From the NCBI GenBank assembly GCA_027459725.1, contig DAIDHK010000002.1, forward strand, positions 169,866 through 204,891: a stretch of DNA of 35,026 bases, in the 5' to 3' direction. Made by a program: the position numbers and the translations under genes. The notes under the pieces were generated by a model. The model made no database searches. It was not told the DNA's origin and was given only the letters and a program-made list of their open reading frames with translations. This document shows positions 12,022 through 32,840 of this stretch, one piece after another; within the stretch, counting starts at the first letter, position 1; each line of letters opens with the position of its first letter. This DNA comes from Candidatus Levyibacteriota bacterium. Its GTDB lineage: Bacteria > Patescibacteriota > Microgenomatia > Levybacterales > UBA12049.

Positions 12022-12092
12022 TACGTGTCATAGCATAGCATTCAGGGATATTTTCTTCAAGTAAAGTGATTCTATAAATGTATAAAGAAAAA

Positions 12093-13457: not shown

Positions 13458-13580
13458 CTATTCAAGCACTCCAATATCCCATCCCATCTCAGACAGTGAT
13501 TCTATTACCTTTTCCGCCGGCATTCCGGCTTTCTTGCAAGTATCCAGGTATTTTTTTACCTCCTCAGGTAATGTTTGCAT
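13458..13580 (-). CDS. Small helical protein (40 aa)
   Basis: MQTLPEEVKKYLDTCKKAGMPAEKVIESLSEMGWDIGVLE*; below the ORF-track cutoff; weak SD. Confidence 0.6.
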   Translation of the reverse strand: MQTLPEEVKKYLDTCKKAGMPAEKVIESLSEMGWDIGVLE

Positions 13581-13671
13581 AATTACACTTACCTATAAGA
13601 CTATATATACGCAATTAAATAAGTTTGTCAAGGAAATACTATATTTTACATGTCATGATATAATATGATTA

Positions 13672-14163: not shown

Positions 14164-14199
14164 TCTCCATCTGAATAGCTAATGTGATATACTACTCAA

Positions 14200-14538
14200 A
14201 TGCAAAATAAAAACGACGAACTTATAATCGAAGACATAAAAATAGGCACCGGAACTGCTGTAAAATCTGGGGATCGAGTGGTCATGCACTATATCGGGAC
14301 ACTGGAAGATGGGACTAAGTTTGATTCTTCTTATGATCGGGAACAGCCTTTTGAAACTCCTATAGGAGTAGGTTATGTAATTAAAGGATGGGATATGGGG
14401 GTTCCGGGCATGAAAGTGGGAGGAAAAAGGAAGCTAACTATACCTTACCAATTAGGCTATGGAAAATATGGAGTAGATCCGGATATTCCAGGATTCGCAA
14501 CATTAATATTTGAAGTTGAACTATTACAAATCAAATAA
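14200..14538 (+). CDS. FKBP-type peptidyl-prolyl cis-trans isomerase
   Basis: GDRVVMHYIGTLEDGTKFDSSYDREQPFETPIGVGYVIKGWDMGVPGMKVGGKRKLTIP. Confidence 0.97.
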   Translation: MQNKNDELIIEDIKIGTGTAVKSGDRVVMHYIGTLEDGTKFDSSYDREQPFETPIGVGYVIKGWDMGVPGMKVGGKRKLTIPYQLGYGKYGVDPDIPGFATLIFEVELLQIK

Positions 14539-14541
14539 TAG

Positions 14542-14658
14542 TTAAGCTAGGGCGTGAAAAAGAAGCATAAGAATTTCAGATACTATGGCCGCAATAGCTA
14601 CTACAGATATTAATATAAAACTTGCCGCTAAATGATTCTGAGCCTTTATTGAATTCAC
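14542..14658 (-). CDS. Possible single-TM micro-protein (38 aa, GTG start)
   Basis: VNSIKAQNHLAASFILISVVAIAAIVSEILMLLFHALA*; AAAGGG upstream. Confidence 0.35.
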   Translation of the reverse strand: MNSIKAQNHLAASFILISVVAIAAIVSEILMLLFHALA

Positions 14659-14817
14659 ACTTATAATTTACCCTTTAATCCATTAATACAATAAAAAAGT
14701 AATAATACTATCAATTAATTATAATAATTATGCAAGAGTATTCTTAATTTTACCTGAAAGATTAATAAAATCATCTAAATGACAAAAGAGAGAATTTTTA
14801 GTAAAATAAGCTCAGAT

Positions 14818-14891
14818 TGCTGGATCATCTAACGGTAGGATAGTGGACTCTGAATCCATTCATCTTGGTTCGAATCCAAGTCCAGCAGCCA
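14818..14891 (+). tRNA. tRNA-Gln (anticodon CTG), CCA encoded
   Basis: TGCTGGA/TCCAGCA acceptor stem, TGGA-CTCTGAA-TCCA anticodon arm, CTTGG-TTCGAAT-CCAAG T-arm, discriminator G, CCA. Confidence 0.95.
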
Positions 14892-16496
14892 CTTACTATT
14901 TATTATAACTTGCTGCTGCTTTCTAAGCACAGAAAAGATTGGATTCTCGGCTATTTTCCATATTTTTCTATCCTTAACATATATCCTTTCAAAGAATAAA
15001 CGAAGGTAATGTCTTTTCAAAAAGTCAGGAGCCTCCATATAGGTTTGAAAAGTGTTGGTCGTTAACGACAAAACTTCATCAATCAATTTATAGTCTAGCT
15101 TTGATTTACGCTCCAGTTCATAAATCTGAGATTCAATTTCATTTATTTTTCCTTCAATTTCAGCTTGGGCTTCTAAAAATTTTTCTTTTGTAAGTTCTCC
15201 GTCTATTCTAAGTTCAAGAAGTCTGCTATTTTTTGTTTTTAACCCCTTTTTACGATTTTCCAATGCTTGAACTTGACCTTGAATATCGCCTTTGCTCTGT
15301 TGTAAGATCTCTTTTACCTTTGCCTTTACTAATTCAATAAATTCTGGCTTAAACTCGAATTTTTTAATATAATTAGCAACTTGTTTTTCTAGCTTTTCCG
15401 TTTCTATATAAGTGCTTTTACATCCTCCTGTTTTATTACAATGATAATAGGAAATTTCATCTCTTTTTTGGGAGTTAAGACCATAATGTTTTTCTGCAGT
15501 AAGCCTTAGATAATCTTCTTCATAAACTACTTTCTTATATCCACTAACTCTTTTTTTACCTTTATGAATAGAACAGTAGGCGATACCTCTTAAAAGGAAC
15601 GTATGCTTTCTTTCTCTGGTTAAAAATTGCCTATGTTGAGCAGATACATAATGGCATAGATCAAATAATTCTTTTGTTGTTAGAGGATTATGTTTTCCAA
15701 TTTTTTCCTGCTTTGGTTTACCCCATTTCATTAGTCCATAATAAAACGGATTGTCAATTATTGCGTTTATACTTTGTGGTGAAATAGGATCACCATTTAT
15801 AGCTACTAATCCCTTCTTGCTCATCATTCTTGCCAAAGTAGCATAAGAATAATTACCAGTTGAATAGAGATGAAACACTTCTGTTATTAAGGGTCCTGTT
15901 ATTAGGTCTACCTCAATAGGGTCTAATCTCCTTTCCAAAGCATCATATAACTTTTGCTTATCAGCAGAGTAAAACTTTTTGCTTAACTGTCCCTCTCTGT
16001 TGATGTTCACATATCCAGGAGGCGCCCATCCAGGCCACCAACTTGCATTCCAACGGCCTAACATCCCTCTTTTAGTTTTTCTACTCAAATCCCGACTGTA
16101 ATAAGCGTTTATTCCAGCCATCATAGAATCCATTAAATATCCTTCTGGACTTTCATCAATCATAGGTTGCATCATTGATACTAATTCTACACCAACTTTT
16201 TTAAGGCTTTGTTTATACAATGCGTGATCAAGTTCGTTTCTGCAAAATCTATCAGTGTGGTATACAAGTACAGCCTGAATTTTTTGTTTTCCTTCTTCGC
16301 ACTCGTTTATCATTTGAAGAAAATCTGGTCTATTGTCTGCTGTCGCACTAATGCCGTCATCAATAAAAAATTTAACGATTTTATATCCGTTTCTTTCAGC
16401 GAATTCACTTATAGCTCTTTTTTGTTGACCTATTGAATAATTTCCCTTTTGTTCCTCAGAGCTTACGCGACAATATCCGAATGCTAGTTTTAACAT
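14829..16496 (-). CDS. Large serine recombinase; C-terminus encoded antisense to tRNA-Gln
   Basis: MLKLAFGYCRVSSEEQKGNYSIGQQ catalytic motif, VYHTDRFCRN, recombinase domain, coiled coil; last codons (LLDLDSNQDEWIQSPLSYR) read through the tRNA complement. Confidence 0.93.
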   Translation of the reverse strand: MLKLAFGYCRVSSEEQKGNYSIGQQKRAISEFAERNGYKIVKFFIDDGISATADNRPDFLQMINECEEGKQKIQAVLVYHTDRFCRNELDHALYKQSLKKVGVELVSMMQPMIDESPEGYLMDSMMAGINAYYSRDLSRKTKRGMLGRWNASWWPGWAPPGYVNINREGQLSKKFYSADKQKLYDALERRLDPIEVDLITGPLITEVFHLYSTGNYSYATLARMMSKKGLVAINGDPISPQSINAIIDNPFYYGLMKWGKPKQEKIGKHNPLTTKELFDLCHYVSAQHRQFLTRERKHTFLLRGIAYCSIHKGKKRVSGYKKVVYEEDYLRLTAEKHYGLNSQKRDEISYYHCNKTGGCKSTYIETEKLEKQVANYIKKFEFKPEFIELVKAKVKEILQQSKGDIQGQVQALENRKKGLKTKNSRLLELRIDGELTKEKFLEAQAEIEGKINEIESQIYELERKSKLDYKLIDEVLSLTTNTFQTYMEAPDFLKRHYLRLFFERIYVKDRKIWKIAENPIFSVLRKQQQVIINSKWLLDLDSNQDEWIQSPLSYR

Positions 16497-16497
16497 A

Positions 16498-16752
16498 TTA
16501 TTTTTCTGTAAAGGCATTAAATGCCCACCAAAAGTCTTCGTGATTGTCATACGTGCCATCGTTATAAAAATTTGTATATTTACCCTCTTTATCTAATTGC
16601 TTTCCGTAGCTCACTTTAAGATAGACTTTTATATCCTCATCTTTGAATTTAATTGAGCGTATTTTTGTCAAAAACCCCCTTATTTTATGTGTCCTTATCA
16701 TTTGTACCTTTTTATCTTTTCTATAAATTTTTATTGTGTAATTCATGGTCAT
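16498..16752 (-). CDS. Hypothetical small protein immediately upstream of the recombinase
   Basis: 84-aa ORF; stop directly adjacent to recombinase ATG (TAATATG). Confidence 0.7.
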   Translation of the reverse strand: MTMNYTIKIYRKDKKVQMIRTHKIRGFLTKIRSIKFKDEDIKVYLKVSYGKQLDKEGKYTNFYNDGTYDNHEDFWWAFNAFTEK

Positions 16753-16787
16753 TCATTTTTATTTTTGGACAGGACAGCCCAACCCAA

Positions 16788-17237
16788 TTACTTGGATTGA
16801 GCTGTTTTCATTCTTAGTTTTCTTGAAGCAAGACCTCTTTTTATAGCTCTGCTCATTGCATCTTTGTATTTCTGAGTCAAACTCCATGCGAGAAATCCCA
16901 CTTCTGGAAAATCTACTTCACTTGCAAATTTGAGAGTGCCTTTATGCTTAGAAAGTTCCTGTACGACTTGATAGATTAGTAGATAATCCCTAGCGATTCT
17001 GTCAGCGCTATAAACAATTAGTGTTTCAAAGGTCTGCAACTTAATTCCTCTCAGAATTTTCTTTAGCCCTAGATTAACTTGCATACCGCTTCCTTGCTCA
17101 CAGACAATATCTACAATCTCGTATCCATTTTGTTGGGCATAGGTAACACATGCCTTGCGTTGTGCTTTAAGGGAAACAAACTTCTCTTTTTTTATGTTTG
17201 TTGCAACTCTGCAATAAATAACCGCTCTTTTGTTCAT
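16788..17237 (-). CDS. Resolvase N-terminal-domain protein lacking the catalytic serine (CRVATN)
   Basis: NKRAVIYCRVATNIKKEKFVSLKAQRKAC...IVYSADRIARDY; codon GCA at the catalytic Ser position; SD AAAGGAGGTGATAAATG. Confidence 0.88.
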   Translation of the reverse strand: MNKRAVIYCRVATNIKKEKFVSLKAQRKACVTYAQQNGYEIVDIVCEQGSGMQVNLGLKKILRGIKLQTFETLIVYSADRIARDYLLIYQVVQELSKHKGTLKFASEVDFPEVGFLAWSLTQKYKDAMSRAIKRGLASRKLRMKTAQSK

Positions 17238-17271
17238 ACATTTATCACCTCCTTTTGCCAGATTTGTTGTA

Positions 17272-17481
17272 TTAACATACTGGACATTTTGGTTTTGGAT
17301 AACTTCCAGTATCTTTTAATTCACTACGAGAAATCCTATTTTCTATTCCAATAAACCCACACTTATTGCATTCAATAAAGGTCAAACCATTTTCAATTAT
17401 TCTCACACACCCATTTTTCTGAGAAAATTTCTTTTGGGTTTCACTGGGAACTCTTAAATAAACTGCTGCGTTTTTAGCCAT
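17272..17481 (-). CDS. Zn-ribbon micro-protein with recombinase-like N-terminal strand (AVYLRVPSETQ)
   Basis: MAKNAAVYLRVPSETQKKFSQ...CNKCGFIGI...YPKPKCPVC*; GGAGGTGA upstream. Confidence 0.75.
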   Translation of the reverse strand: MAKNAAVYLRVPSETQKKFSQKNGCVRIIENGLTFIECNKCGFIGIENRISRSELKDTGSYPKPKCPVC

Positions 17482-17677
17482 AAAATTGTTCACCTCCGTT
17501 CTTCCATAAGTTTTGATTACATAATGGACACTTTGATTTTGGGTAGCGTTTCCGTTTTCTTATTTCTGTTTTGGAGTAGACAACAAACTTAGAGGCAATA
17601 CTTATTATTCCAGCCCAACCACACTGGCTACAAGTTGCAAAGATGAATTTTTTATTTATATCTGTTATAGTATCCAT
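17474..17677 (-). CDS. Zn-ribbon micro-protein, paralog of the adjacent gene
   Basis: CSQCGWAGI...YPKSKCPLCNQNLW. Confidence 0.75.
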   Translation of the reverse strand: MDTITDINKKFIFATCSQCGWAGIISIASKFVVYSKTEIRKRKRYPKSKCPLCNQNLWKNGGEQFYG

Positions 17678-17718
17678 ACAAATAGGACTCGGTTCACAAA
17701 AATGACCATCCTACGAGT

Positions 17719-17764
17719 AAATAGAGCCTTACTTGGTTTCCAGGCCTGGAGGCTCTATTTTTTT
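17719..17764 (+). terminator. 10-bp stem hairpin containing a 12-bp palindrome, plus-strand T7 tract
   Basis: AAATAGAGCC (17719-17728) / GGCTCTATTT (17751-17760), TCCAGGCCTGGA at 17739-17750, T-run 17758-17764. Confidence 0.6.
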
Positions 17765-17806
17765 GTTATTTTTATTATATAATACCTCATAGTATTGTTA
17801 CAGCGT

Positions 17807-18670
17807 TTAGTTAAATTCCTTGTATCTACTTTCATTTTCCCAACTAGCCATGTCATAAGAAAAAATTGGTATTTCAATTTTTGCACCATCAGTCTTTTCT
17901 TTTCTGTTATCTGCGTTTTTCAAACGCCAGTCATTTCCTTCAACTCTGATTGGTTTACACATTTCAATAACCCTTGAAGCGAACTTATCTCCTAGTCTAT
18001 TCGCTAACTCCTGAGGAGAGAGATTACTGCTAATAAATGTTGGTAGCCTTTCCTCATATCTATAATTGATAACATCATAAAGAATTTCCTTAGCCCAATC
18101 AGTTGCGCTCTCTGTTCCAATATCATCAAGGAACAAAATTGTGGTGCGCAGTTTTCCCAAAACTATTTCTTGTTCTGTTTGTTCATCATATCCATATTTT
18201 TTACCAAAACTACTTCGGAAGTTCGTTAATAGGGATGAAGTATTAGCCCAAATGATTTTTCGATAGTTATAACCTTTATCAATGAGTCCACAACAAAGAT
18301 CAGTAAGAAGATGCGTTTTCCCAGTACCCGGTTGTCCATATAAATATACGCCTGAATTCCTTAATTCTTCATAGTCCATCGTTTTTACTTTTTCTATATA
18401 GCTGTAAGCATTCTGGTTGTTATTAGTAACAATAAACTTGTCAGTTAACAACCAACGAAGTTTTATTCCTACATCAGAATACTTTGCCAAACGTACCCTA
18501 CACCTTAGATGCTTATCGTATCTAAATTTTTCTATATCAAGGAGATAAGGATATAACTCATTTCTGTCTTGATTTGAAATTCTAATATCATTTGCTAAAC
18601 CAGGCTCAAGAACTTCTAGTGGTTTTCCACATATGCTGCAAATTGTTTTGTTTAGATCAGTATTTTCCAT
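17807..18670 (-). CDS. DnaC/IstB-like helicase-loader ATPase
   Basis: LYGQPGTGKTHLLTDLC Walker A, TTILFLDDIGTES Walker B, YRYEERLPTFISSNLSPQEL sensor 1. Confidence 0.92.
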   Translation of the reverse strand: MENTDLNKTICSICGKPLEVLEPGLANDIRISNQDRNELYPYLLDIEKFRYDKHLRCRVRLAKYSDVGIKLRWLLTDKFIVTNNNQNAYSYIEKVKTMDYEELRNSGVYLYGQPGTGKTHLLTDLCCGLIDKGYNYRKIIWANTSSLLTNFRSSFGKKYGYDEQTEQEIVLGKLRTTILFLDDIGTESATDWAKEILYDVINYRYEERLPTFISSNLSPQELANRLGDKFASRVIEMCKPIRVEGNDWRLKNADNRKEKTDGAKIEIPIFSYDMASWENESRYKEFN

Positions 18671-19460
18671 ATTTATTCTCCAAATTTGAATTGGACGTTT
18701 TTTCTCTTGTTGCTCTCATTTTGTTGAAAATTGTATCGGAAAAAAATGTACCAAGGTCAAATCCTAATTTGTCGGCATCTGAGTCTTTTGATTTTGCAAA
18801 TGTTTGAAGCAAAATAGCAATCTCTCGTAATGAATAACCTTGTTCCAGTTTCCGTTTTAACAACATGCCCCATTTGCCCCAACTAGCAGAACTAATTGAT
18901 GGCTCTATATTAAATTTTTCTTTGTAAAGTTTCTTATAATAAGGTACTAACTTTTGAATAGGCGTTTGTTCTTTAGGAGGTACTCCTTTAACTGGTAATG
19001 GATTGTCAGATATATTATTTGTCTTTTGTTTTGTTGTTTTTTCTTGTTCTGTTGTGTTTGTTTCCTCAAATAATGGAAGTGTTATGTCTTGCGATAACGG
19101 TTTGTTATTTGTAGAAATACTATTCTGTGTACTCATATTATTAGTAGCAATAATGTTTTTACTTTTCTCATAGTTCCAGCTATCTGTTTTTTTGTTTATG
19201 CTGTATGTATTGATGCGTCCTTCCTTAGATGTTTTAATAATGTTTTTATTGATCAATCGTAAAAGTGCTGGATGTGCATTTCCTCGGTTTATTCCTGTTG
19301 CTTTCTCAAATTGAGAAAATGATATATGATCTTTTTCTTTATTCCAGCCAGATGTTTTACGAAAAATTACCCAGAGCAATCTCCCTTCATATTCTGATAA
19401 GTTAATGCGTGCAAGCGCTTCTGCAACATTGTTTTCAATCTTAAAAAATCCGTTCTCCAT
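18657..19460 (-). CDS. Phage replication protein O-like initiator (HTH N-terminus)
   Basis: MENGFFKIENNVAEALARINLSEYEGRLLWVIFRKTSGWNKEKDHISFSQFEKATGINR, typical of lambda-O N-terminal family; overlaps dnaC-like gene. Confidence 0.85.
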   Translation of the reverse strand: MENGFFKIENNVAEALARINLSEYEGRLLWVIFRKTSGWNKEKDHISFSQFEKATGINRGNAHPALLRLINKNIIKTSKEGRINTYSINKKTDSWNYEKSKNIIATNNMSTQNSISTNNKPLSQDITLPLFEETNTTEQEKTTKQKTNNISDNPLPVKGVPPKEQTPIQKLVPYYKKLYKEKFNIEPSISSASWGKWGMLLKRKLEQGYSLREIAILLQTFAKSKDSDADKLGFDLGTFFSDTIFNKMRATREKTSNSNLENKYGKY

Positions 19461-19469
19461 ATAAATCTT

Positions 19470-19712
19470 TTACACTTCGTAATCCCTGTGTAATAAATCC
19501 TTCAAATAATCAAAGTTATCGAATAAAAGACGTGGATTTACAGATGCCTGGTTTGTCCAATAATCTTGAAGTGCTTTTCTAAGATCATTACTATCCATGA
19601 AGCAAAACACAATTTTACGAGGATCTGTTTTAATAATTTTTGTGAGAGATATCCCCTTGGTTAGGAGATATGCGCAGGATCGTATATCAGTTGATTTAAA
19701 TAGATTCTCCAT
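19470..19712 (-). CDS. DUF5659-like protein
   Basis: STDIRSCAYLLTKGISLTKIIKTDPRKIVFCFMDSNDLRKALQDYW...LLFDNFDYLKDLLH; start at MENLFKS. Confidence 0.7.
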   Translation of the reverse strand: MENLFKSTDIRSCAYLLTKGISLTKIIKTDPRKIVFCFMDSNDLRKALQDYWTNQASVNPRLLFDNFDYLKDLLHRDYEV

Positions 19713-19842
19713 ATTTTTTTTCAATTTGTTGGGCAAGATTGCTGTTTTTCTTGCTCAAGACTTGTTGTATTAAAATCTTTGCTAGGGTTTCCGCTGCCAT
19801 TTCAATTTGTTTTTGAGCATCAATCTGAATCTGTTTTTTCAT
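19696..19842 (-). CDS. Micro-protein (48 aa), overlaps the start of the DUF5659-like gene
   Basis: MKKQIQIDAQKQIEMAAETLAKILIQQVLSKKNSNLAQQIEKKYGESI*; 17-nt overlap suggests coupling. Confidence 0.6.
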   Translation of the reverse strand: MKKQIQIDAQKQIEMAAETLAKILIQQVLSKKNSNLAQQIEKKYGESI

Positions 19843-19903
19843 AAAATAATTAGACTGTTTATGGCCTAATTATTTCAGGAGTGGAAGTGAAAGTCGTGGA
19901 AGA

Positions 19904-20632
19904 CTAGAAAGTTGGAGTTTTCCGAAGCAGTGCCTCGTAGGTTTCAAAACCTTTTCTTATGGTACTTTCGTCATAACAGGTGCAACCCTTTGGCTTTTTC
20001 TTACCTGTTTGATGCCCTTCCGGCATTGGACAATTTAGTGTTTCTTTTTCTGCTATCTCAGCGTATGAAGCGTCAGCTTTGATTGCCTTATACCATTCTC
20101 TATATTTTTTAATTGACGGTTTCTTTTTATTTATGTCCCAAACGAGATTAGTAAATTTATAATTTAGCTCACTATTTTCACTATTTACATTACTCACATT
20201 TCCTAGAATATCTCTATAATCCCTATATGCTTTTAATACATCTTCATCTCTTGCGCCTGGAGAAAGAATAATTCCATAAGTTTCGTCTGGACTGGATTCT
20301 CCATGCTTGTCGTAAAAATCACCTGTTTTATGTACAAGATATGCAGGGGAATAATCATCATTAGTGATCTCATTACGGAATACAACAGCACTAATAACGC
20401 TTCTAAATATAACAGGCAAAAAAAGTCGTTTCCTACTTTTTTCAATCTCCTTATCAATTAATTTAGCCTCTTTTTCACTAACAACCTTAGAATAATCATT
20501 TTTAGAAAGTGGCATTTTAACTTTCAAAGCTGATCTTAGTCTTTCTATTTCCTTGGCAAACTCATCACGATCCACAACCGGAGCAACATCGGTAAAATAT
20601 CTGTCATCATCAATATCAATCTTAATATCCAT
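19904..20632 (-). CDS. Hypothetical protein with Cys/His cluster near C-terminus
   Basis: Start near MDIKIDIDDDRYF; NCPMPEGHQTGKKKPKGCTCYDEST. Confidence 0.65.
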   Translation of the reverse strand: MDIKIDIDDDRYFTDVAPVVDRDEFAKEIERLRSALKVKMPLSKNDYSKVVSEKEAKLIDKEIEKSRKRLFLPVIFRSVISAVVFRNEITNDDYSPAYLVHKTGDFYDKHGESSPDETYGIILSPGARDEDVLKAYRDYRDILGNVSNVNSENSELNYKFTNLVWDINKKKPSIKKYREWYKAIKADASYAEIAEKETLNCPMPEGHQTGKKKPKGCTCYDESTIRKGFETYEALLRKTPTF

Positions 20633-20672
20633 CTGTTTGAAATTATACCACTTGGACAAGCATTAGTTAATT

Positions 20673-20840
20673 TTATATAGAGGGTTTTTGTAGGTTTAAC
20701 TGCTTGAGCAATTCTATTTCTGAGATAATCCGAAGTGAGTATCTCGCAAAGCACCTTTCAATTTCAATCCTAAACTCTTTTGTTAATTTACCTTGCGTTT
20801 CGGCAAGGCTTAATAGGTCTTTTCTACTAATTCTTTTCAT
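20673..20840 (-). CDS. Micro-protein (55 aa)
   Basis: MKRISRKDLLSLAETQGKLTKEFRIEIERCFARYSLRIISEIELLKQLNLQKPSI*. Confidence 0.5.
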   Translation of the reverse strand: MKRISRKDLLSLAETQGKLTKEFRIEIERCFARYSLRIISEIELLKQLNLQKPSI

Positions 20841-20908
20841 GGCACGCCTGTATCACATGAATTGTCTGTTTGAAAATAAGATAGTTATAATTATTATAAA
20901 CTTCGGGG

Positions 20909-21814
20909 TTACTTTTCATAGCTTGTCTGGTTGCATGCTTGATAGTAAGTCTGAAGCTCAGTTTTAAAACCCAGAGAATTCATCTTGTCAAACAACTGCT
21001 GTCCGTTCAAATCTTGCCATTGATCTGGTGTAACAAGAGATAACTGGTCTGGTGTTACTTGAACATAAGTCATTCTCATATATTTGAGATTTTGACATTG
21101 AGGATTTCCAAATGGATCTTTATTGACACCAAATGCTGCAACAGTAATTTCACCTACTTGAGTATTGAGCTTTACTGTTCGTAATGCTCCCAGCACATCA
21201 GTTGTAGCTTGTTCTGCTGCATTGTAATAGCCAGCAGTTAATGGAAATGGTATTGCAGAAAACTCGATGCTTAGTATGCCATTACTTCCAAGATCAGGAT
21301 TTGCTGGAACAATACTAATATCGTGAATAAGAGGTTCTTTCTCATTTGTTCCATATTCAGAGTAATTTACAGTTGGATATTGTTTTGTATCGCCATTTAC
21401 TAACTGCATGTCGGCAAGCAACACTTTGGTTACTGCGTTTTTAACTGCCTGTTTATCTTGGTCTATTGGTGAAAGAGCAGGCGTTGCTGTGGGTTTAGAT
21501 GCTTGTTTGATAGGGACAGTTGTTGCCTGTGCTATTTGCATAGCTGTTGGTTGCGTAGTAGGTATAGACATTGCTGATTTTCCACCATCTTTAGCCTCCA
21601 AAACAATTCCTCCAACCATCAGAAGAACGAATAGTCCTACCACGCTTGATGTTGCAATAATCTTGAACTTTCTTGAGAACTTGGATACTCTATAAAACCA
21701 CCAGAGAATTGTTCCTGGTATTGTTAGATACGGAACAATAAAGGTTGCAGCAATTAGGATAAGGATAATAACGAGAAACTTTTTATCTTTCTTGAGTTTG
21801 TTTATAAGTTTCAT
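20909..21814 (-). CDS. Membrane-anchored hypothetical protein
   Basis: Two N-terminal hydrophobic helices, Thr/Pro/Ala linker, extracytoplasmic domain. Confidence 0.75.
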   Translation of the reverse strand: MKLINKLKKDKKFLVIILILIAATFIVPYLTIPGTILWWFYRVSKFSRKFKIIATSSVVGLFVLLMVGGIVLEAKDGGKSAMSIPTTQPTAMQIAQATTVPIKQASKPTATPALSPIDQDKQAVKNAVTKVLLADMQLVNGDTKQYPTVNYSEYGTNEKEPLIHDISIVPANPDLGSNGILSIEFSAIPFPLTAGYYNAAEQATTDVLGALRTVKLNTQVGEITVAAFGVNKDPFGNPQCQNLKYMRMTYVQVTPDQLSLVTPDQWQDLNGQQLFDKMNSLGFKTELQTYYQACNQTSYEK

Positions 21815-21851
21815 ATTTGTTAGATAACCTATAGGCTATTATAGCATAAAC

Positions 21852-21903
21852 TTGATGAGTACGCTATATACCATTTGATGAATACGCTAGAAAATATGGT
21901 ATA
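21852..21903. promoter_or_regulatory. Candidate XRE operator: tandem TTGATGrrTACGCTA repeats plus TATACCAT/ATGGTATA inverted repeat
   Basis: TTGATGAGTACGCTA (21852-21866) and TTGATGAATACGCTA (21875-21889), 23-bp period; IR arms 21867-21874 and 21896-21903. Confidence 0.65.
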
Positions 21904-22166
21904 TGGGAAAATTAACTTTAAGAGCGAATTTATCAGAATCAGAAAACGGAAAGTTAAAAGATGAATTTTCTGGACGTCTTGCAGAAAAACTGAAAGAGCT
22001 ACGATTAAGAAAGGGTATGAAGCAAGACGAATTAGCAAACGCTGCGACAGTACATTTAACATATATCTCTCATTTAGAGGCAGCTAAATATCACCCATCT
22101 GTTTTTGTAATGTGGAAGATTGCTAAAGCACTTGGTGTTAGTATGAATGAACTTACCGACCTTTGA
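21903..22166 (+). CDS. XRE-family HTH transcriptional regulator
   Basis: LAEKLKELRLRKGMKQDELANAATVHLTYISHLEAAKYHPSVFVMWKIAKALGVSMNEL. Confidence 0.92.
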   Translation: MGKLTLRANLSESENGKLKDEFSGRLAEKLKELRLRKGMKQDELANAATVHLTYISHLEAAKYHPSVFVMWKIAKALGVSMNELTDL

Positions 22167-22182
22167 TAGTACAACTCTAATT

Positions 22183-22198
22183 TTCGCGTATATGCGAA
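22183..22198. repeat. Inverted repeat TTCGC-GTATAT-GCGAA
   Basis: Direct reading; no T-run follows. Confidence 0.55.
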
Positions 22199-22231
22199 GT
22201 TAATTAAATTTACTTTCTTCAATCATATTTC

Positions 22232-22648
22232 TTATTCTTTGAAATCTTCTTGTGGATCAAAGGACAAAGTTTTTTCTCGTCTTCCATACAAATCACTCAT
22301 TGTGTTTGAATGGGTTGCAAACCACATAACAAAATCCCTATCATCCTTTGAGAGTCCTCCTGCCTCCTGTTGTCTTCTAGCAATACTCATAAATTCTGTA
22401 AACATAATTTTACAGACAAGGACAGGGATAAAATTTCTAAAATGGGCTATTTTCTCTCCAAATAACCTATCCTCTTTCAGATATTTATAAAATTCTGAGT
22501 TGTGGATTTGGGCTGCTTTCAAAGCCTTATTGATAGATATACCTGTCATTAACCAGGGTTCTAGTTTTGAGAGTATTAGTTGTTTATGATTTTCCTTTTG
22601 CTGAATTGTTAACCAAGGTCTACCGCCTTTGTTTTTACAGTCTGTCAT
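22232..22648 (-). CDS. HTH / terminase-small-subunit-like protein
   Basis: KGGRPWLTIQQKENHKQLILSKLEPWLMTGISINKALKAAQIHNSEFYKYLKED. Confidence 0.6.
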   Translation of the reverse strand: MTDCKNKGGRPWLTIQQKENHKQLILSKLEPWLMTGISINKALKAAQIHNSEFYKYLKEDRLFGEKIAHFRNFIPVLVCKIMFTEFMSIARRQQEAGGLSKDDRDFVMWFATHSNTMSDLYGRREKTLSFDPQEDFKE

Positions 22649-22758: not shown

Positions 22759-25452
22759 ATGGATAATATAAGTGAAAAAGTAACACGGAAAGAATGGATT
22801 GATGGAAAATTAAGGAAATCAGGCTGGGAAAGCATTGTTCCATACGTTGAAGGATTGGATACTTCCTCTTTTATGAATACCGCAGTTGAGGAGTATCCCA
22901 CTGAAACAGGTCCGGTTGATTACGCACTTTTTAGAAACGGGAAGATAATTGCCTTTGTTGAAGCAAAGAAAATCAATCTTTCTCCCCAAAATGTTCTCTC
23001 TCAAGCGAAGCGTTATGTAAAAGGCACAAAAGAAGGAGTACCTTTTATTTACTCCACCAATGGAGAGCTGATTTGGTTTCAAGACTTACGGATTGATAAG
23101 AGTAGGTCAAGACCAGTCAATGAATTTCATACTCCAAAGGCATTGCATGAGCTTCTCACTATGAATAGAGAAGAAAAACTGTCATGGTTTATACAAAATC
23201 CACCCGACTACACAAAGTTACGATATTACCAAAAAGATGCGATCCAAAGTATTGAACAAGCACTAGTCGACCATAAAAGGTCAATGTTGGTAGCAATGGC
23301 CACAGGCACGGGAAAAACTTTCACAGTTGCTTCCCTTATTTACCGCCTGTTGAAATCTGGAACAAGTAAAAGAATTTTATTCCTCGTTGATAGAAAAGCA
23401 CTAGCAGCTCAAACAGTTATGGAGTTTGCGAGTTATGAAGCAGAAAACGGACTCAAGTTTAATCAAATCTACCAAGTGTATAGCCAAAAATTCAAAATGG
23501 ATGATTTAGGAAGTAATGAAAAATTCGATTTCAATGTTCTTCCAACAACCTATCTTACCAACCCTGACGGAAACCAAGTTTTTGTATATATCTCAACAAT
23601 CCAACGAATGCAAATATATTTATATGGCAGAGAAGGTATGTTTTCAAAAGATGGAGATTATGACCCAGATGACGATGCAGATAAGCTGGATATTCCAATA
23701 AACGCATTTGATACGATCATTGCTGATGAATGTCATAGAGGTTATACTTCGCAGGAAGTCAGTAAATGGCGTGGAGTGCTTGACCATTTTGATGCTATAA
23801 AAATTGGACTTACTGCAACACCAGCAGCACATACCACAAGTTACTTCAAAGAGGTCATTTATCGCTATGGCTACGAACAAGCTGTGCAGGATGGATATCT
23901 AGTTGATTATGATGCGGTGAAAGTTGAATCGGGGGTACGCCTTGAAGGTATAACTCTTAAAGAAGGCGAAGAAGTAGAACAAATTGATCCGTTTAGTGGC
24001 GTGCAACAACTTGATTTACTTGAGGACGAAAGACACTTTGATGTTACGGATGTGGAAAGAAGTATTACTGCTCCTGATAGTAATAAAAAGATTATTGAAG
24101 AATTTGCAAAACACGCCTTAGAGCAGGAAAAAGAACTTGGACGCTTTCCGAAAACCCTTATATTTGCCGATAATGATTTGCCTCACATCTCCCATGCTGA
24201 TCAATTAGTTAATATCTGTCGTGATGTTTTTAATCGTGGTGATGAATTTGTAGAAAAAATTACAGGCTCTGCAACAGTTGATAGACCGCTTACCAGAATC
24301 AAAGAATTTAGGAATCGTCCCAATCCTCATATTGTTGTAACAGTAGATATGCTTTCAACTGGTGTTGATATTCCATCAATCGAGAACATTCTTTTTCTCC
24401 GTCCTGTTAAATCAAGAATCCTGTTTGAGCAAATGCTTGGGCGTGGTACAAGGTTATGTTTTAATTTTCCCAATGGACTCGGTACTGCTGCTAAAACTCA
24501 CTTTACTGTTTTTGACTGTTTTGGAGGGACACTTCTTGAGGCATTTAAGAATAAAACGAGTATTACTCAGGTTACTCCTTTGACACCAACGAGGAAAATA
24601 GAACAGGTCATTGAAGACATAAATAACAATATAGATGTTGAATATAACGCAAGGTGTTTAATTAAAAGATTACAACGAATTGCAAAGAATGTAACATCAG
24701 AAGGGAGAGAGCAATTCGCTAAGTTTTTTGAAAATGGTGATCTCGCTCAATTTGCTAGATCGCTTCCTGACGAGTTGTCAGGCAATCGTGTTAACACATT
24801 ACAACTTCTTGCAGACCCAAAGTTTATCGATTTATTAAATAACTATCCACGACCACCAAAAAGATTTATTCGAGCAATAGAGCAAGAAGATACTGTTACT
24901 TCTGAGTATATTTTCAGAACTACCGATGGCAGAGAATTAAAGCCAGACGATTACATTGCCCAATTTGAAAAGTTTGTTAAAGAAAACCCAGATCACATAG
25001 AAGCAATAGCAATCGTTCTACAAAAACCTGCTGGATGGGGTACAGATGCATTAAGGGAGTTGCGCACTTCTCTTAAAGATAGACCAGAACGATATACAGA
25101 AGAAAATCTAAGGAAAGCATATAAATATCCTCTTGCCGATATTATCTCGATGATTAAGCACGCTGCGAAAGAAGAACCAATGCTTTCAACAAAAGAGCGT
25201 ATTGATCTTGCAATAGAGAAAGTAACAGAAGGAAAGAAACTTACTGATAAACAACATGAATGGATTGAGTTAATTAAAAAACATTTAATTGAAAACCTAA
25301 CTATTGATGCAAATGACTTTGACATCATGCCTATTTTTGTAGATAGAGGTGGAAGTTTCAAAAAGATAAATGAGGATTTCGATAACAATCTCATGGCACT
25401 TATTCAAAATATAAATACTGCGATACCACAAGTCTATGGTTACACAAACTAA
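22759..25452 (+). CDS. hsdR: Type I restriction endonuclease subunit R
   Basis: PD-ExK region VDYALFRNGKIIAFVEAKK; SF2 motifs ATGTGKTFT, DECHRGY, LTATPAAHT, QMLGRGTRLC. Confidence 0.96.
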   Translation: MDNISEKVTRKEWIDGKLRKSGWESIVPYVEGLDTSSFMNTAVEEYPTETGPVDYALFRNGKIIAFVEAKKINLSPQNVLSQAKRYVKGTKEGVPFIYSTNGELIWFQDLRIDKSRSRPVNEFHTPKALHELLTMNREEKLSWFIQNPPDYTKLRYYQKDAIQSIEQALVDHKRSMLVAMATGTGKTFTVASLIYRLLKSGTSKRILFLVDRKALAAQTVMEFASYEAENGLKFNQIYQVYSQKFKMDDLGSNEKFDFNVLPTTYLTNPDGNQVFVYISTIQRMQIYLYGREGMFSKDGDYDPDDDADKLDIPINAFDTIIADECHRGYTSQEVSKWRGVLDHFDAIKIGLTATPAAHTTSYFKEVIYRYGYEQAVQDGYLVDYDAVKVESGVRLEGITLKEGEEVEQIDPFSGVQQLDLLEDERHFDVTDVERSITAPDSNKKIIEEFAKHALEQEKELGRFPKTLIFADNDLPHISHADQLVNICRDVFNRGDEFVEKITGSATVDRPLTRIKEFRNRPNPHIVVTVDMLSTGVDIPSIENILFLRPVKSRILFEQMLGRGTRLCFNFPNGLGTAAKTHFTVFDCFGGTLLEAFKNKTSITQVTPLTPTRKIEQVIEDINNNIDVEYNARCLIKRLQRIAKNVTSEGREQFAKFFENGDLAQFARSLPDELSGNRVNTLQLLADPKFIDLLNNYPRPPKRFIRAIEQEDTVTSEYIFRTTDGRELKPDDYIAQFEKFVKENPDHIEAIAIVLQKPAGWGTDALRELRTSLKDRPERYTEENLRKAYKYPLADIISMIKHAAKEEPMLSTKERIDLAIEKVTEGKKLTDKQHEWIELIKKHLIENLTIDANDFDIMPIFVDRGGSFKKINEDFDNNLMALIQNINTAIPQVYGYTN

Positions 25453-26860
25453 CATTGTTAATAAATTATGGGGGTTTTGCCACGTCCTACGCCATGATGG
25501 AATGGATTATGGTGATTACGTGGAGCAACTTACTTATTTGTTGTTTCTTAAAATGATTGAGGAAAAAGGTGCAGTAATTCCAAAAGAATACTCTTGGGAT
25601 GTTCTAAAATCAAAATCAGGTACGGAGCTAATTGATTTTTATTCAGAGCTATTGCGAGGTTTAGCAAAACAAGAAGGGTTACTTGGTGCAATTTTCTCTG
25701 AGGCATTATCAAAATTCACAAAGCCTGTAAATCTTAAAAGACTTATTGATCTCATTGATGAAATAGATTGGTCAGGACTTGGTATTGATGTAAAGGCACA
25801 AGCATACGAAGGCTTACTAGAAAAGTCTGCAGCCGAAGGCAAAAAAGGCGCTGGACAATTCTTTACACCTCGTATTCTTATCCAGTCCATAGTCAATGTT
25901 ATGAAACCTGATCCAAGGGTGTCAAAAGATTTTGCTATTACTGACCCTGCTGCTGGTACAGGTGGTTTTCTTCTTTCAGCTTACGAATGGTTCTTGCAAC
26001 AAACTGGGGATGCAATCAATCGTGATGACTTAGAGCGCATAAAGAAAAATACTTACTTTGGTACAGAGTTGGTGGCAAGACCTCGAAGGCTTGCTCTTAT
26101 GAATCTCTATCTACATGGTATTACTGCAAATATCCGCCTTGGAGATAGTATTTACGAACCAGATCATGGTGATAGATACGATGTTGTTTTGACTAATCCT
26201 CCATTTGGTACAAAAGGAGCAAATCAAATACCAGAAAGACAGGATTTTACTGTTGGAACAAGTAACAAGCAGCTTAATTTTATCCAGCATATTCTAACTA
26301 TTCTCAAGCCAGGAGGTCGTGCAGCAGTTGTTTTACCTGATAATGTGTTATTTGGTGATCAGGCAGGAGAAGTTTTCAAAATCCTTATGCAGGATTGCAA
26401 CTTACATACAATTCTAAGACTTCCTAATGGTACGTTTACTCCATATAGCCAAGGAGTTAAGGCAAATGTTGTATTTTTTACCAAAGGTATTTCTACAGAG
26501 AATGTATGGATTTATGATGCTCGTACCAATGTGCCAGGTATAACCAAAAATGATAGACCGCTTACTCATAAACATTTTGAGGAATTTGAAAAATGTTATG
26601 GAGAAAATGCTAACGGACAATCTTCTAGGAAAGAAAGCGAGTCCAAAGAAAATAGATGGAAAATGTTTACCATAAAACAAGTAAAAGATAAAAATTATAA
26701 ACTTGATAGTTTTAAGTGGTTAAAAGATGATGATATAGAAAATGGCGAAGAAATTGGTGAGCCTGAGGAGTTAATAACAGATGCGTTATCTGAGCTAAAG
26801 GAAGCAACAAATAGCTTGGAAAAAATATATGCAGAACTTGAAAATGGAACTGACAAATAA
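25436..26860 (+). CDS. hsdM: Type I DNA methyltransferase subunit M
   Basis: GAGQFFTPRILIQSIV, DPAAGTGGFL, LTNPPFGTK; overlaps the hsdR stop. Confidence 0.97.
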   Translation: MVTQTNIVNKLWGFCHVLRHDGMDYGDYVEQLTYLLFLKMIEEKGAVIPKEYSWDVLKSKSGTELIDFYSELLRGLAKQEGLLGAIFSEALSKFTKPVNLKRLIDLIDEIDWSGLGIDVKAQAYEGLLEKSAAEGKKGAGQFFTPRILIQSIVNVMKPDPRVSKDFAITDPAAGTGGFLLSAYEWFLQQTGDAINRDDLERIKKNTYFGTELVARPRRLALMNLYLHGITANIRLGDSIYEPDHGDRYDVVLTNPPFGTKGANQIPERQDFTVGTSNKQLNFIQHILTILKPGGRAAVVLPDNVLFGDQAGEVFKILMQDCNLHTILRLPNGTFTPYSQGVKANVVFFTKGISTENVWIYDARTNVPGITKNDRPLTHKHFEEFEKCYGENANGQSSRKESESKENRWKMFTIKQVKDKNYKLDSFKWLKDDDIENGEEIGEPEELITDALSELKEATNSLEKIYAELENGTDK

Positions 26861-28127
26861 TGAATCTTCTGAGAAGGTAGAATATCTTCTAAAAGACTGC
26901 GTGGATATTCTGGACAATCAAAGAATCCCTGTGAATTCGGAAGAAAGAAATAAAAGAGTAGGTAATGTTCCTTACTATGGCGCAACAGGACAAGTTGGGT
27001 TAATAGATGACTATATTTTTGATGAAGAGTTAGTTCTGTTGGGTGAAGACGGCGCTCCTTTTCTAGATAAATCAAAACCTATTGCATATATTGTTACTGG
27101 TAAAAGTTGGGTAAACAATCATGCACATGTTTTAAGGGCAAAGAAAGGTATTGCAAACAATCGGTTTATAAAATACTACCTTGATTACTTCGATTATTCT
27201 GATTCTGTAGCCGGAACAACAAGGTTAAAGTTAACACAGTCATCTATGCGTAATATCCCAATAAGATTGCCTTCTTTATCTATACAAGAGAAAGTAGCAA
27301 TGGAAATACAAAACATTATTAGCAATGGTGACGAAGCAAAACAAAAGATACAAAAAGCAAAAAAAATAGTTTCAAAATTCCGTCAAGCAATTCTGACTGC
27401 TGCGGTTACAGGAAAACTTACCGATAATTGGCGAATAGAGAATATACCCATATTTAAAAAGTCTAAATTTTCAGGTAAAAAATTTGATATTGAAGTGTCT
27501 GAAAACACAGATTTATTTGACATACCTGAATCTTGGAAATGGGAGGCAATAGGTAATTATGCAGATATAATTGATCCACAACCAAGCCATAGAACACCTC
27601 CATCTGCTAACGAGGGAGTACCATACATTGGTATGGGAGATATCAATTCTGATGGTTCTATTAACTTCGAGGAATCCAGAAAAGTTTCAGTAGATATTTT
27701 GCAAGAACATAATAAAAGATATCAATTAAAATTGGGAGATTTCATTTTTGGGAAAATTGGAACATTAGGCAAGCCTGTTTTGATCCCTGTCAATCAAAAA
27801 TATACATTATCCGCAAATGTTGTTCTTGTTCAATCAAATCCTTCGTTAATTATTTCTCAATATCTATATTTTTACCTTTCAAGTAAATTAGTAGAGAAAA
27901 TCTTACTAATTGACAGTAGGGCAACATCCCAACCAGCATTTGGTATTAAAAGGTTAAGAACATTTCCGTTACCACTACCCTCGATTGAAGAACAAGAGGA
28001 AATAGTTAAAAGAGTTAATGCATATTTTGAAGTGGTAACTCAGATTGAATATCAAATCAAGAAAGCAGAAGCGAAAGTATCAAAACTTACTCAAGCAATT
28101 TTGGCAAAAACATTCAAGAATAACTAA
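26829..28127 (+). CDS. hsdS: Type I specificity subunit S, two target-recognition domains
   Basis: VPYYGATGQVGLIDDY...LVLLGEDG; second half YIGMGDIN...FGKIGTLGKPV; coiled-coil spacers; FRQAILTAAVTGKLTDNWR; overlaps hsdM. Confidence 0.95.
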   Translation: MQNLKMELTNNESSEKVEYLLKDCVDILDNQRIPVNSEERNKRVGNVPYYGATGQVGLIDDYIFDEELVLLGEDGAPFLDKSKPIAYIVTGKSWVNNHAHVLRAKKGIANNRFIKYYLDYFDYSDSVAGTTRLKLTQSSMRNIPIRLPSLSIQEKVAMEIQNIISNGDEAKQKIQKAKKIVSKFRQAILTAAVTGKLTDNWRIENIPIFKKSKFSGKKFDIEVSENTDLFDIPESWKWEAIGNYADIIDPQPSHRTPPSANEGVPYIGMGDINSDGSINFEESRKVSVDILQEHNKRYQLKLGDFIFGKIGTLGKPVLIPVNQKYTLSANVVLVQSNPSLIISQYLYFYLSSKLVEKILLIDSRATSQPAFGIKRLRTFPLPLPSIEEQEEIVKRVNAYFEVVTQIEYQIKKAEAKVSKLTQAILAKTFKNN

Positions 28128-28135
28128 CACTCTAT

Positions 28136-28849
28136 ATGACATTATTGCATAATCAAATAAATAGACTATGGCACAACCCTTCATATCTTAAATTTAAGGA
28201 ACATGGGTTTGCGAGACGGATATTTACCTCAAAGGATACAGAAGGATTTTTAAGAACAGGTGCATATCTTATAAAGGAGGCTGAAAAACGCTCCGACACT
28301 ATCATACCTTGGGATGAAAAAAGAAGATATGAAATACTTGCAAATCCACGTCTTGAGAATGCTTTTCTTGCTTTGGGGACAGAATATCTACTAAAAGGGA
28401 TTTTTTTAAGCAAGGGATATGCTATAAACAAACACGAATCATCTGCTCCTCCTGTAAGTTACCCCATTCTCCTTAAAGGAAATAGAGATAAACTTCGGTC
28501 TAATGAAGTACAAGATTTATCTCAAATAATTGCCCATTTGGGTAGAGTAATTGATTTTTCAGAATTCGATAAATCTCAAAAAGATGAAGAAAAGAAAGCA
28601 GTTGCAGAATTAAAAGGAATTCATTCAAAAGGGATTGAGAAGCTGACAATACCTTTCCCTAACGCAAAGCAAATACTTGAATACCTACATTTTAAGAGAA
28701 ATTATGCTTTGCATAGGCCTTTTATAATACCTGAGTTTAGAGGAATTACTCGACACGTTTTTAAGCTCCTTGACTACATAGCTCAAAAAGGTACAGGAAG
28801 AAAAATTGAAGAACTTTCTAAGCTGAATGATACTTCTGGGGAGAAGTAA
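28136..28849 (+). CDS. HEPN-like protein with RNxxxH motif, directly downstream of hsdS
   Basis: LENAFLALGTEYLLKGIFLSKGY helix; LHFKRNYALHRPF (R-N-x3-H). Confidence 0.65.
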   Translation: MTLLHNQINRLWHNPSYLKFKEHGFARRIFTSKDTEGFLRTGAYLIKEAEKRSDTIIPWDEKRRYEILANPRLENAFLALGTEYLLKGIFLSKGYAINKHESSAPPVSYPILLKGNRDKLRSNEVQDLSQIIAHLGRVIDFSEFDKSQKDEEKKAVAELKGIHSKGIEKLTIPFPNAKQILEYLHFKRNYALHRPFIIPEFRGITRHVFKLLDYIAQKGTGRKIEELSKLNDTSGEK

Positions 28850-28855
28850 AATAAT

Positions 28856-29626
28856 CTAAGGCATTGCAATGATCTTTTCCAATTCTTTTGGCAATTCCTG
28901 GAGTTCTGCCTCTTTGCCAAGTGAAAAGTACAGAGAAAATTGTCCAGTAAGAAGACTAAACATATGGAAATTGGCGAACAATGATTGCTCAACCCATTTA
29001 TAATCAGAGGCTATTTTAACAGTAACTTCATTTTTTTCACTTTCAAAGGAAAGATAATCATCAATGCCTCCTGCTGTTGAATGAACTAGATCGTTCTGTA
29101 CTTTATACAAGGTTTTATAAATATGTTCCAAGCTAACATCTCTCGACATCACAGATAAATTAAATTCAGCCCATGTATTTTTTTTATATCCGTATTGTTT
29201 CTGAACTTCTTTTGCACGTTGCTGTATCCGCTCAATAGTATCTTCCGTTTTCCCTTTTTCTTTGAACTTATCAGTAAGCATTTTAGTTTTTTGTTCATCT
29301 TGGAGATAATAAGAAATTGCCTTTTTTCGTATTATCCATTGATAATCTAAATATCTATCTATCCTGCCATCCGTCGAATCACTAAAAATATAAAGCGTAT
29401 TTACAATCAATTCAAATAATGTTCTGGCTAATACAAGGGCATCTTGACCATACCCATGTCTACAAAGCAACAGGATTGCGGCATATGTTTTATACCCTTT
29501 TCCAAAAGCCATTGCTAAATAATGACCCTTTCTTGTATCTGTATACTGACGACCTTCAGTCATTGAATCTGCTAATACTAAAAGTTTTTCATTCAGGGCA
29601 AACAGTTTTTTTATGCGCTCAGTCAT
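28856..29626 (-). CDS. DUF5677-like protein
   Basis: LLCRHGYGQDALVLARTLFELIVNTLYI; LEHIYKTLYKVQNDLVHSTA; WAEFNLSVMSRDVS. Confidence 0.75.
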   Translation of the reverse strand: MTERIKKLFALNEKLLVLADSMTEGRQYTDTRKGHYLAMAFGKGYKTYAAILLLCRHGYGQDALVLARTLFELIVNTLYIFSDSTDGRIDRYLDYQWIIRKKAISYYLQDEQKTKMLTDKFKEKGKTEDTIERIQQRAKEVQKQYGYKKNTWAEFNLSVMSRDVSLEHIYKTLYKVQNDLVHSTAGGIDDYLSFESEKNEVTVKIASDYKWVEQSLFANFHMFSLLTGQFSLYFSLGKEAELQELPKELEKIIAMP

Positions 29627-29704
29627 AAGTAGCCATAATAGTAACACAAATATATTTGGCAGCGATACTTTTGATTCTCTCTATTTGAGTGTATAATCAC
29701 ATAT

Positions 29705-30277
29705 ATGAAAAAGGGTGAGTTGATTGCAAAAATTCAAAAAACCATAGAAGAAATACCAGTTTTTGAATGGTCTAAAGATCGTGCAATAGAATTTATACGA
29801 GAAAAACAAGCAGAGAAACCGGGTGAGGAGCTTCGTGTTACCTATGAAATTGCCGTTAATACAACGGCGTGGCATATTCCTGTTAAAAATGACTCTATTG
29901 ATGAAGCTGTTGAAAGATTAAATCAACTTCCAATTTTTGAAAAATACTATTTATTTGTCTATACGCAATATGAACACTATCTAAGTGATAACGCAAGTCA
30001 AAATGGAGCTGATAAAAATGATATAGAGCTTTTGCGTTACAGAATTGTCAGAAACGTACTTGTTCATAACAATAAAATAGTTTTGCAAAGAGACATAGAT
30101 GAATTTGATCGACTCGCAAAACAATACAATCCAACACTAACTGAAAATGATCTAATGCAAAAGTTTAACTACAGAGCAAACGCTGAGCTTTCTCTCTTAG
30201 AATTTGGACCAGACATGTTATTGAGGTTCAAGAACTTATTGGAAACCGTTATTCCGGATGAAGATATTCCTGAATGA
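29705..30277 (+). CDS. HEPN-like protein with canonical RNxxxH
   Basis: ELLRYRIVRNVLVHNNKIV; TATAAT at 29692-29697. Confidence 0.65.
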   Translation: MKKGELIAKIQKTIEEIPVFEWSKDRAIEFIREKQAEKPGEELRVTYEIAVNTTAWHIPVKNDSIDEAVERLNQLPIFEKYYLFVYTQYEHYLSDNASQNGADKNDIELLRYRIVRNVLVHNNKIVLQRDIDEFDRLAKQYNPTLTENDLMQKFNYRANAELSLLEFGPDMLLRFKNLLETVIPDEDIPE

Positions 30278-30997: not shown

Positions 30998-31537
30998 TTA
31001 TAATGTAGAAGCCGTCCATTCCTGTCCCTTCATGCATTGTCCAGCATTACAGTAAACTTTATTTTCAGAAATTCTTGTTATCTCTCTTATACCTTTTTCG
31101 TCTTTTGTTTCCTCAAAGCGGTTTTGGATATATCTTAAAGCAAACTTTTCTGCTCCCTGTTCACTACCTGGCAAATGAGCGAAATCTTCGAGGTATTCAT
31201 AGGTAACCCAAACATAGTATTCGGTAAATTTATTTTCAGGTCCAAAGGGAATAACTAGGCGCTCTTTCCCTGTCGTATCATAAAAACTCACAATTATTCT
31301 CCATACGTCCACTCCTTGTGCTGCTTGATGGGCGTGGGTAACAACTGCGCGTAAACCCTTTGTCAAAAGAACTTCGAGATTTCGTGATACGAGTGCATCA
31401 AGGTCTTCGAAACGAAATCGTACTGCTCGCTCTAGGGTGTATGTATGCAATTCTCCTTTTTCAACATACCGTTTGACCGTTTCCGGTGATACGCCAAGAT
31501 AGACTGCTGCTTCATCAAGAGTTAAGTATTTTTGCAT
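30998..31537 (-). CDS. Excisionase/MerR-type HTH protein with uncharacterised C-terminal domain
   Basis: MQKYLTLDEAAVYLGVSPETVKRYVEKGELHTYTLERAVRFRFEDLDAL. Confidence 0.85.
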   Translation of the reverse strand: MQKYLTLDEAAVYLGVSPETVKRYVEKGELHTYTLERAVRFRFEDLDALVSRNLEVLLTKGLRAVVTHAHQAAQGVDVWRIIVSFYDTTGKERLVIPFGPENKFTEYYVWVTYEYLEDFAHLPGSEQGAEKFALRYIQNRFEETKDEKGIREITRISENKVYCNAGQCMKGQEWTASTL

Positions 31538-31614: not shown

Positions 31615-32604
31615 CTAACTTATTTTTTTTACTATTTCTTCATACTCTGGTGTAGGCACAGCGTTACCCGGAAGTATGACCTTCATCGGGTAAGGAAAAT
31701 ATCCATCAACTGCTTGCCAAATTTCTTGACCTTCCAATGGATAATCTTTTATTAGTCTTTCATAAAAGTTTTCAGGGTTTTCAGTTGAAATAATGTAAAT
31801 TTTCATATTACTACCTTTCCTTTCACTCGTTCCATGAAGTGCTTCGTAGATGATTTTGTTAATATAATCATCTCTAAAGCTGTAACCATAAACGACTAAC
31901 TTTATATTTTCTTGAGCTACTGCGGAAGCAAAAAGTTCTCTATACCAGTTAAGTAAAGGTATGGTTTGAATAATTTCAGGCTTGTTTATTCCAATAACTT
32001 TCGCGTTTGAACCATCCTGAGTTTTCCAATTCAATGAACCATGTAACTTAATAAAGCCAAACTTCTCTTTTTCAAATTGGGTTTTGTATTCTTCTAATTC
32101 TGCTGCATTTGGAAGTATTTTTTCTGTTTTGAAATCATTTGCGTTGATATTTCCAGGAGTACCTGCATATTCCATAGACTTTGGGACCAGAGGTTGTCTA
32201 TTGGAATGCTTTTCAAAAAATAAATCCTGATTTAAGGAAAAACAAGCTCCAAAACCTCCGCTACCATCATTTACGAACAGATTTATAAATTCTGTTAGAG
32301 AGCTGGGATTGACGTCAACTGTACTCCAATTTTGTGATAACAGTTTGTCATTCATATTTTGATAGGCTTCTTGGATTACCTTTTCAAGAACTTCAAATTG
32401 TTCTTTCTTTGCTTCTTTTTGAGTATAAAAATTAGAATATGCATTTTCAAAATTAAATTGCTTTTTTAATTCTAGCTTCACATCGCCAGCACCATCTAAC
32501 AAAGGATTATTAAATATCTTTACCCACATATCCCTTGCGAGTAGTCCACCAAAATTCGCAGAGAAGCCAGCTCCTATGAGCAAAATTTTTTTGTTGAATT
32601 GCAT
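31615..32604 (-). CDS. SIR2-like domain protein, putative NAD-consuming defence effector
   Basis: KKILLIGAGFSANFGGLLARDMW, FIKLHGSLNWK, LVVYGYSFRDDYINKIIYEAL; start at MQFNKK, 6 nt from TATAAT. Confidence 0.85.
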   Translation of the reverse strand: MQFNKKILLIGAGFSANFGGLLARDMWVKIFNNPLLDGAGDVKLELKKQFNFENAYSNFYTQKEAKKEQFEVLEKVIQEAYQNMNDKLLSQNWSTVDVNPSSLTEFINLFVNDGSGGFGACFSLNQDLFFEKHSNRQPLVPKSMEYAGTPGNINANDFKTEKILPNAAELEEYKTQFEKEKFGFIKLHGSLNWKTQDGSNAKVIGINKPEIIQTIPLLNWYRELFASAVAQENIKLVVYGYSFRDDYINKIIYEALHGTSERKGSNMKIYIISTENPENFYERLIKDYPLEGQEIWQAVDGYFPYPMKVILPGNAVPTPEYEEIVKKIS

Positions 32605-32840
32605 AATTGTATTATAGCAGCCACAAAGCAGATGTATAATATAGGTGTGGTAAATTACGCCCCCACTCAATGGAGAATAAAGCTAGCAGCTAGCCTCACC
32701 AATACCCATAAATTTTTCCATTTGTAGCCATTTTAATATAGGATATGCGTCCTTTTTTACCCTTCACCTTTATTATATCAATCTGCATCTAAGTTTTACA
32801 GAATTGTAAAAAAAATTAAAGTCGCTAAAATTTTATTGTT

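Follow-up and report, generated by a model that had tools for sequence, protein, structure and literature searches.

Catalytic members of the HEPN superfamily are metal-independent endoRNases. At least 16 HEPN clades are linked to R-M systems, including DUF4145, AbiJ, AbiU2, ApeA, and Abi2/AbiF (PMC3710099). By analogy with PrrC and EcoprrI, a 2013 survey proposed that the R-M subunits keep the RNase inactive until restriction has been defeated (PMC3710099). PrrC, an Rx4H HEPN RNase encoded in the hsd operon of the type IC system EcoprrI, follows this two-tier defence logic (PMC3710099) and is the only R-M-guarded case described in the literature cited here. It consists of an N-terminal ABC-ATPase fused to the HEPN domain and, like RloC, is an anticodon nuclease, an enzyme that cuts a tRNA in its anticodon loop. 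RloC, a HEPN RNase with an RxxxxH motif, is also fused to an ABC-ATPase and is not tied to R-M (PMC3710099). Among the HEPN-T/HEPN-MNT toxins (PF05168), SO_3166 carries RNIAVH, and mutation of the R or the H abolishes its toxicity (PMC4621449). The active-site criteria for HEPN proteins are Rx4-6H, a polar residue following the R, and Ex3[KR] in helix 2, the last of which is found in many HEPN families but not in all (PMC3710099).

We analyzed a stretch of 35,026 nt, hereafter the window, from Candidatus Levyibacteriota bacterium (GCA_027459725.1, contig DAIDHK010000002.1, positions 169,866–204,891, forward strand), whose genome is 1.5 Mb in size and 98.7% complete. The fourth gene of its hsd operon encodes a 237-aa candidate HEPN RNase that resembles PrrC in its Rx4H motif, its location in an hsd operon, and the two-tier logic that this would permit (PMC3710099), and resembles RloC in its RxxxxH motif. 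Unlike PrrC and RloC, the 237-aa protein has no ATPase domain, and membership of either group was rejected for this reason; moreover, the R-M system is EcoEI-like rather than type IC, and no sequence similarity to PrrC was found. As in other R-M-linked HEPN clades, for which a second-tier role has been proposed, the gene is embedded in R-M operons (PMC3710099), but its family matched none of the Pfam, PADLOC, and NCBIfam models tested. The Ex3K helix pattern is shared with the PF05168 toxins, whereas no MNT antitoxin gene adjoins the candidate (it is flanked by hsdS and by a gene for a DUF5677 protein), and the comparison of its family profile with PF05168 did not rise above shuffled controls. 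The 237-aa protein represents a new HEPN-like family; the linkage of HEPN with R-M has itself been described since 2013 (PMC3710099).

The hsd operon and its fourth gene

Open reading frames and Pfam matches identified a complete type I R-M operon, hsdR-hsdM-hsdS, at 22759–28127 on the + strand (Table 1). HsdR, HsdM, and HsdS were all present with the domains expected of an EcoEI-like system. The hsdR and hsdM genes overlap by 17 nt and hsdM and hsdS by 32 nt in the reading frames as listed, and a gap of 8 nt separates the end of hsdS from the ATG of the fourth gene on the same strand. This spacing suggests that the fourth gene is co-transcribed with hsdRMS. An earlier reading made from the sequence only had described the hsdRMS operon as continuing into the RNYALH gene, which the 8-nt gap and the common + strand bear out; the interval that it gave, 25436–30277, begins at the start of hsdM and hence omits hsdR.

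Table 1. Positions in the window of the hsd genes, the candidate HEPN genes, and the gene between them.
Feature	Positions	Strand	Evidence
hsdR, type I restriction subunit (HSDR_N, ResIII, EcoEI_R_C)	22759–25452	+	Pfam EcoEI_R_C 7.5e-32, ResIII 3.8e-36
hsdM, type I methyltransferase	25436–26860	+	Pfam N6_Mtase 7.4e-65, HsdM_N 2.7e-13
hsdS, specificity subunit	26829–28127	+	Pfam Methylase_S 5.6e-34
Fourth operon gene, candidate HEPN RNase of 237 aa	28136–28849	+	No family match; E83, K87, R188, N189, H193 invariant with three homologs
E83-Y-L-L-K87 (ExxxK) codons	28382–28396	+	Invariant in the four homologous sequences; predicted long helix, residues 61–92
R188-N-Y-A-L-H193 (Rx4H) codons	28697–28714	+	End of predicted helix 177–193
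DUF5677 protein, convergent to the HEPN candidate, outside the operon	28856–29647	-	Pfam DUF5677 1.1e-33
Second HEPN-like candidate, 190-aa orphan, divergent from the DUF5677 gene	29705–30277	+	RNVLVH, residues 116–121

Family, conserved residues, and predicted fold of the 237-aa protein

The 237-aa protein gave no match against Pfam, NCBIfam, PADLOC, and PHROG, nor against the sequences in the PDB. Neither a Walker A motif nor an ABC-type NTPase domain was detected with motif and family libraries, in agreement with the earlier description of a small protein lacking such a domain. Plasmids, phages, and viral contigs yielded no copy of the candidate; a degenerate TEYLLK...GY pattern gave five matches in viral contigs, all of them unrelated.

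The family is very rare, with three homologs in total across all scans. The closest, from Candidatus Roizmanbacteria (L006), came to light when about 85,000 species genomes were scanned and is about 71–72% identical; a second (L007, 37% identity) came from a phylum-wide search; and a distant one of 207 aa (L003, in genome G633, 21% identity) from a profile search. Two weak genome matches were rejected: the L004 region consists of translation-factor and ribosomal-protein genes, and L005 contains a stop within the matched segment.

The motif reads RNYALH in the window, RNNYLH in L003, and RNFALH and RNKYLH in the other two sequences. Across the four sequences 21 columns are invariant, among them E83, K87, R188, N189, and H193. 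Both the Rx4-6H element with a polar residue after the R, here RNxxxH, and the upstream acidic Ex3[KR] element, here E83xxxK87, are therefore invariant in four of four. Loss of the R and H in homologs had been named as grounds for abandoning the HEPN reading; R, N, and H are kept in every homolog found, together with ExxxK. Because L003 was matched through profile positions 46–110 only, its RNNYLH, which lies downstream of that segment and has a chance of about 1% in shuffles, is an independent confirmation.

RNxxxH occurred three times in the 32 called proteins of the window (10,075 aa), against 0.49 expected, and the third occurrence, in a serine recombinase, is probably due to chance. The motif arose in 3.0% of the shuffles of the 237-aa protein and in 1.2% of those of the second candidate. 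At such frequencies the motif by itself is weak evidence, and its conservation is the real evidence.

An AlphaFold2 model from a three-sequence alignment was all-helical and weak (pLDDT 57, pTM 0.66). In this low-confidence model, ExxxK lies in helix 61–92 and RNYALH ends helix 177–193, the layout expected for HEPN. A Foldseek search of the model against the PDB gave no significant match. When the family was compared by hhalign with 16 PF05168 HEPN proteins, the ExxxK helices aligned locally, with a score inside the range of the shuffled controls. The structural check suggested with the earlier reading thus placed the motif at a helix end in an all-helical model and gave no significant match in the PDB. 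The HEPN assignment is drawn from the conserved signature and not from a proven fold.

Gene neighbourhoods of the homologs and proposed function

The Roizmanbacteria locus has the same gene order as the window, hsdR-hsdM-hsdS-HEPN. In L007, the HEPN gene is the last of an unrelated, type III-like mod-res operon (N6_N4_Mtase, ResIII helicase, TnsA-like nuclease, HEPN) and overlaps the preceding TnsA-like nuclease gene by 26 nt. The L003 copy is solitary, between phage-like genes (terminase, ParB-methylase); no R-M operon was found within about 9 kb of it (L003/L054), which indicates that the R-M linkage is not obligatory. Given the HEPN assignment, the candidate lies in R-M operons of more than one genome (the window, L006, and L007). 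Recurrent linkage to hsdS, proposed earlier as a check, was thus seen as recurrent linkage to restriction operons (hsdRMS in L006, mod-res in L007), with adjacency to hsdS itself in two of the four loci.

The window and Roizmanbacteria proteins are 78% identical for HsdR, 86% for HsdM, 71% for the HEPN protein, and 31% for HsdS, and the HEPN gene has a dN of 0.20 with dS saturated. Judged from these identities, the HEPN gene has travelled with the HsdR/HsdM core while target recognition (HsdS) changed. Other genes occupy the operon in further relatives. In L052, where HsdM is 56% identical, a gene for an Abi_C/AbiJ-like protein separates hsdM from hsdS in the hsd operon, and in plasmid relatives the slot after hsdS holds an AAA ATPase and an HNH-like protein in Hymenobacter and an Mrr nuclease in Acetobacter. 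In G105, where a transposase gene adjoins a truncated hsdM, the search for a HEPN gene found none.

It is reasonably likely that the 237-aa protein is a small HEPN endoribonuclease, a co-transcribed accessory effector of the EcoEI-like type I hsdRMS system. Its gene would probably give the operon an integral second line of defence, of known type. The active site would be formed by R188, N189, and H193, aided by E83 and K87. In the first tier, the R-M system would cut unmodified phage DNA; in the second, the RNase, harmless in the healthy cell, would cleave cellular or phage RNA once restriction fails or is inhibited, and this cleavage would bring about dormancy or death and stop the infection. 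We infer the RNase activity, toxicity, control by HsdRMS, trigger, and RNA target of the protein, and its guarding by R-M is a putative property taken over by analogy. The co-inheritance of HsdR, HsdM, and the HEPN protein fits restraint of the RNase by R-M subunits. The copy in the type III-like operon and the solitary one indicate that no dedicated type I partner is required. An RNase acting in parallel to R-M is a serious rival to guarding.

The same neighbourhoods bear on what else the gene might be. A HEPN RNase free of R-M guarding, that is, a lone abortive-infection or addiction toxin in an accessory slot of mobile-element R-M operons where unrelated defence genes come and go, would account for the varied contents of the slot beside hsdS (Hymenobacter, Acetobacter, and the AbiJ-like gene of L052) and for the family members found with a type III-like system and alone in a phage-like element. 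Against it, the hsdRMS-HEPN order has been kept in two genomes despite the large replacement of hsdS, and an addiction toxin would need an antitoxin-like partner, none of which adjoins the gene; we consider this explanation possible but rather unlikely. We are equally tentative about a wider proposal, in which a compact ATPase-free HEPN RNase family, portable across type I and type III-like R-M systems, would serve as a general R-M-controlled abortive effector that needs no NTPase module of the PrrC kind to sense that the restriction complex has failed or been engaged.

Two further explanations dispense with the RNase. The weak model, the lack of a significant Foldseek match, and the PF05168 score within the shuffled controls would fit a helical protein, HEPN-like or otherwise, that has no catalytic activity and instead binds RNA or DNA or acts as a regulator of the R-M operon, and non-catalytic HEPN proteins do exist (PMC3710099); however, all expected catalytic residues are invariant even at 21–37% identity, which makes such a protein improbable. 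A coincidental RNxxxH in an unrelated helical protein that serves R-M systems as an accessory subunit draws on the frequency of the motif in shuffles (3%) and on the absence of significant structural and profile matches, but the motif recurs independently in homologs, L003 having been matched through another protein segment, and ExxxK is conserved as well; we regard coincidence as very improbable. Should the protein prove to be a guarded RNase, its small size, lack of an ATPase, and occurrence in operons of two R-M types would recommend it as a simple test system for the restraint of an RNase by a restriction complex.

Two of the relatives carry additional genes of interest. In L052, positions 7561–15856 form a composite hsd run of a weakly PLD-like gene, hsdR, an AriA/PtuA-like AAA ATPase, hsdM, the AbiJ-like gene, and hsdS. 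In L006, the Roizmanbacteria HEPN gene is followed, with 4 nt in common, by a second HEPN-like gene (10702–11841; 379 aa, RHKIIH), whose product gave a weak match to RiboL-PSP-HEPN only (E 0.95) and no match to PADLOC.

Adjacent genes and the mobile-element setting

The sequence-only reading had also named a second HEPN-like gene and a HEPN-like DUF5677 protein near the operon. The DUF5677 protein is present as a separate gene between the two candidates; it carries QNDLVH at the position equivalent to RNxxxH, with the R missing, and DUF5677 may represent a family related to HEPN in degenerate form. RNVLVH is present in the second candidate as described, and in a poor single-sequence model (pLDDT 51) it terminates a predicted helix (residues 104–121). 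Foldseek gave no significant match for this model, and no credible homolog was found; L010–L012 were rejected as unrelated genes or a broken frame. The intervening gene on the opposite strand places the second candidate outside the hsd operon, and its assignment as a putative HEPN protein is at the level of the motif.

In both the window (14829–22648) and L006 (453–2866 and 11824–12240), the R-M/HEPN cargo was observed on an element that has a large serine recombinase ending in a tRNA gene (tRNA-Gln for the window, tRNA-Asn for L006). The elements also have replication genes, in the window Phage_rep_O and a DnaA/IstB-type ATPase, and a terminase-small-subunit-like gene, matched weakly for the window (PHROG E 0.004) and strongly for L006 (9e-14). 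No capsid genes were seen on either element, and the layout is reminiscent of phage satellites. No duplicate of the tRNA-Gln attachment site was found, and the contig ends where the window ends. A second serine recombinase near the contig end (33023–34477, + strand) indicates that the element may be composite or may have been entered twice.

A SIR2-like protein at 31615–32670 (SIR2_2, E 1e-7; PADLOC SIR2 and Aga_SIR2 matches) is probably a further defence gene of the island. The C-terminal part of an excisionase-like protein at 30998–31537 resembles the product of L003:2060–2938 by eye, in an unaligned comparison (FGPE..FEETKD..ITRISEN), hinting at a common element module.
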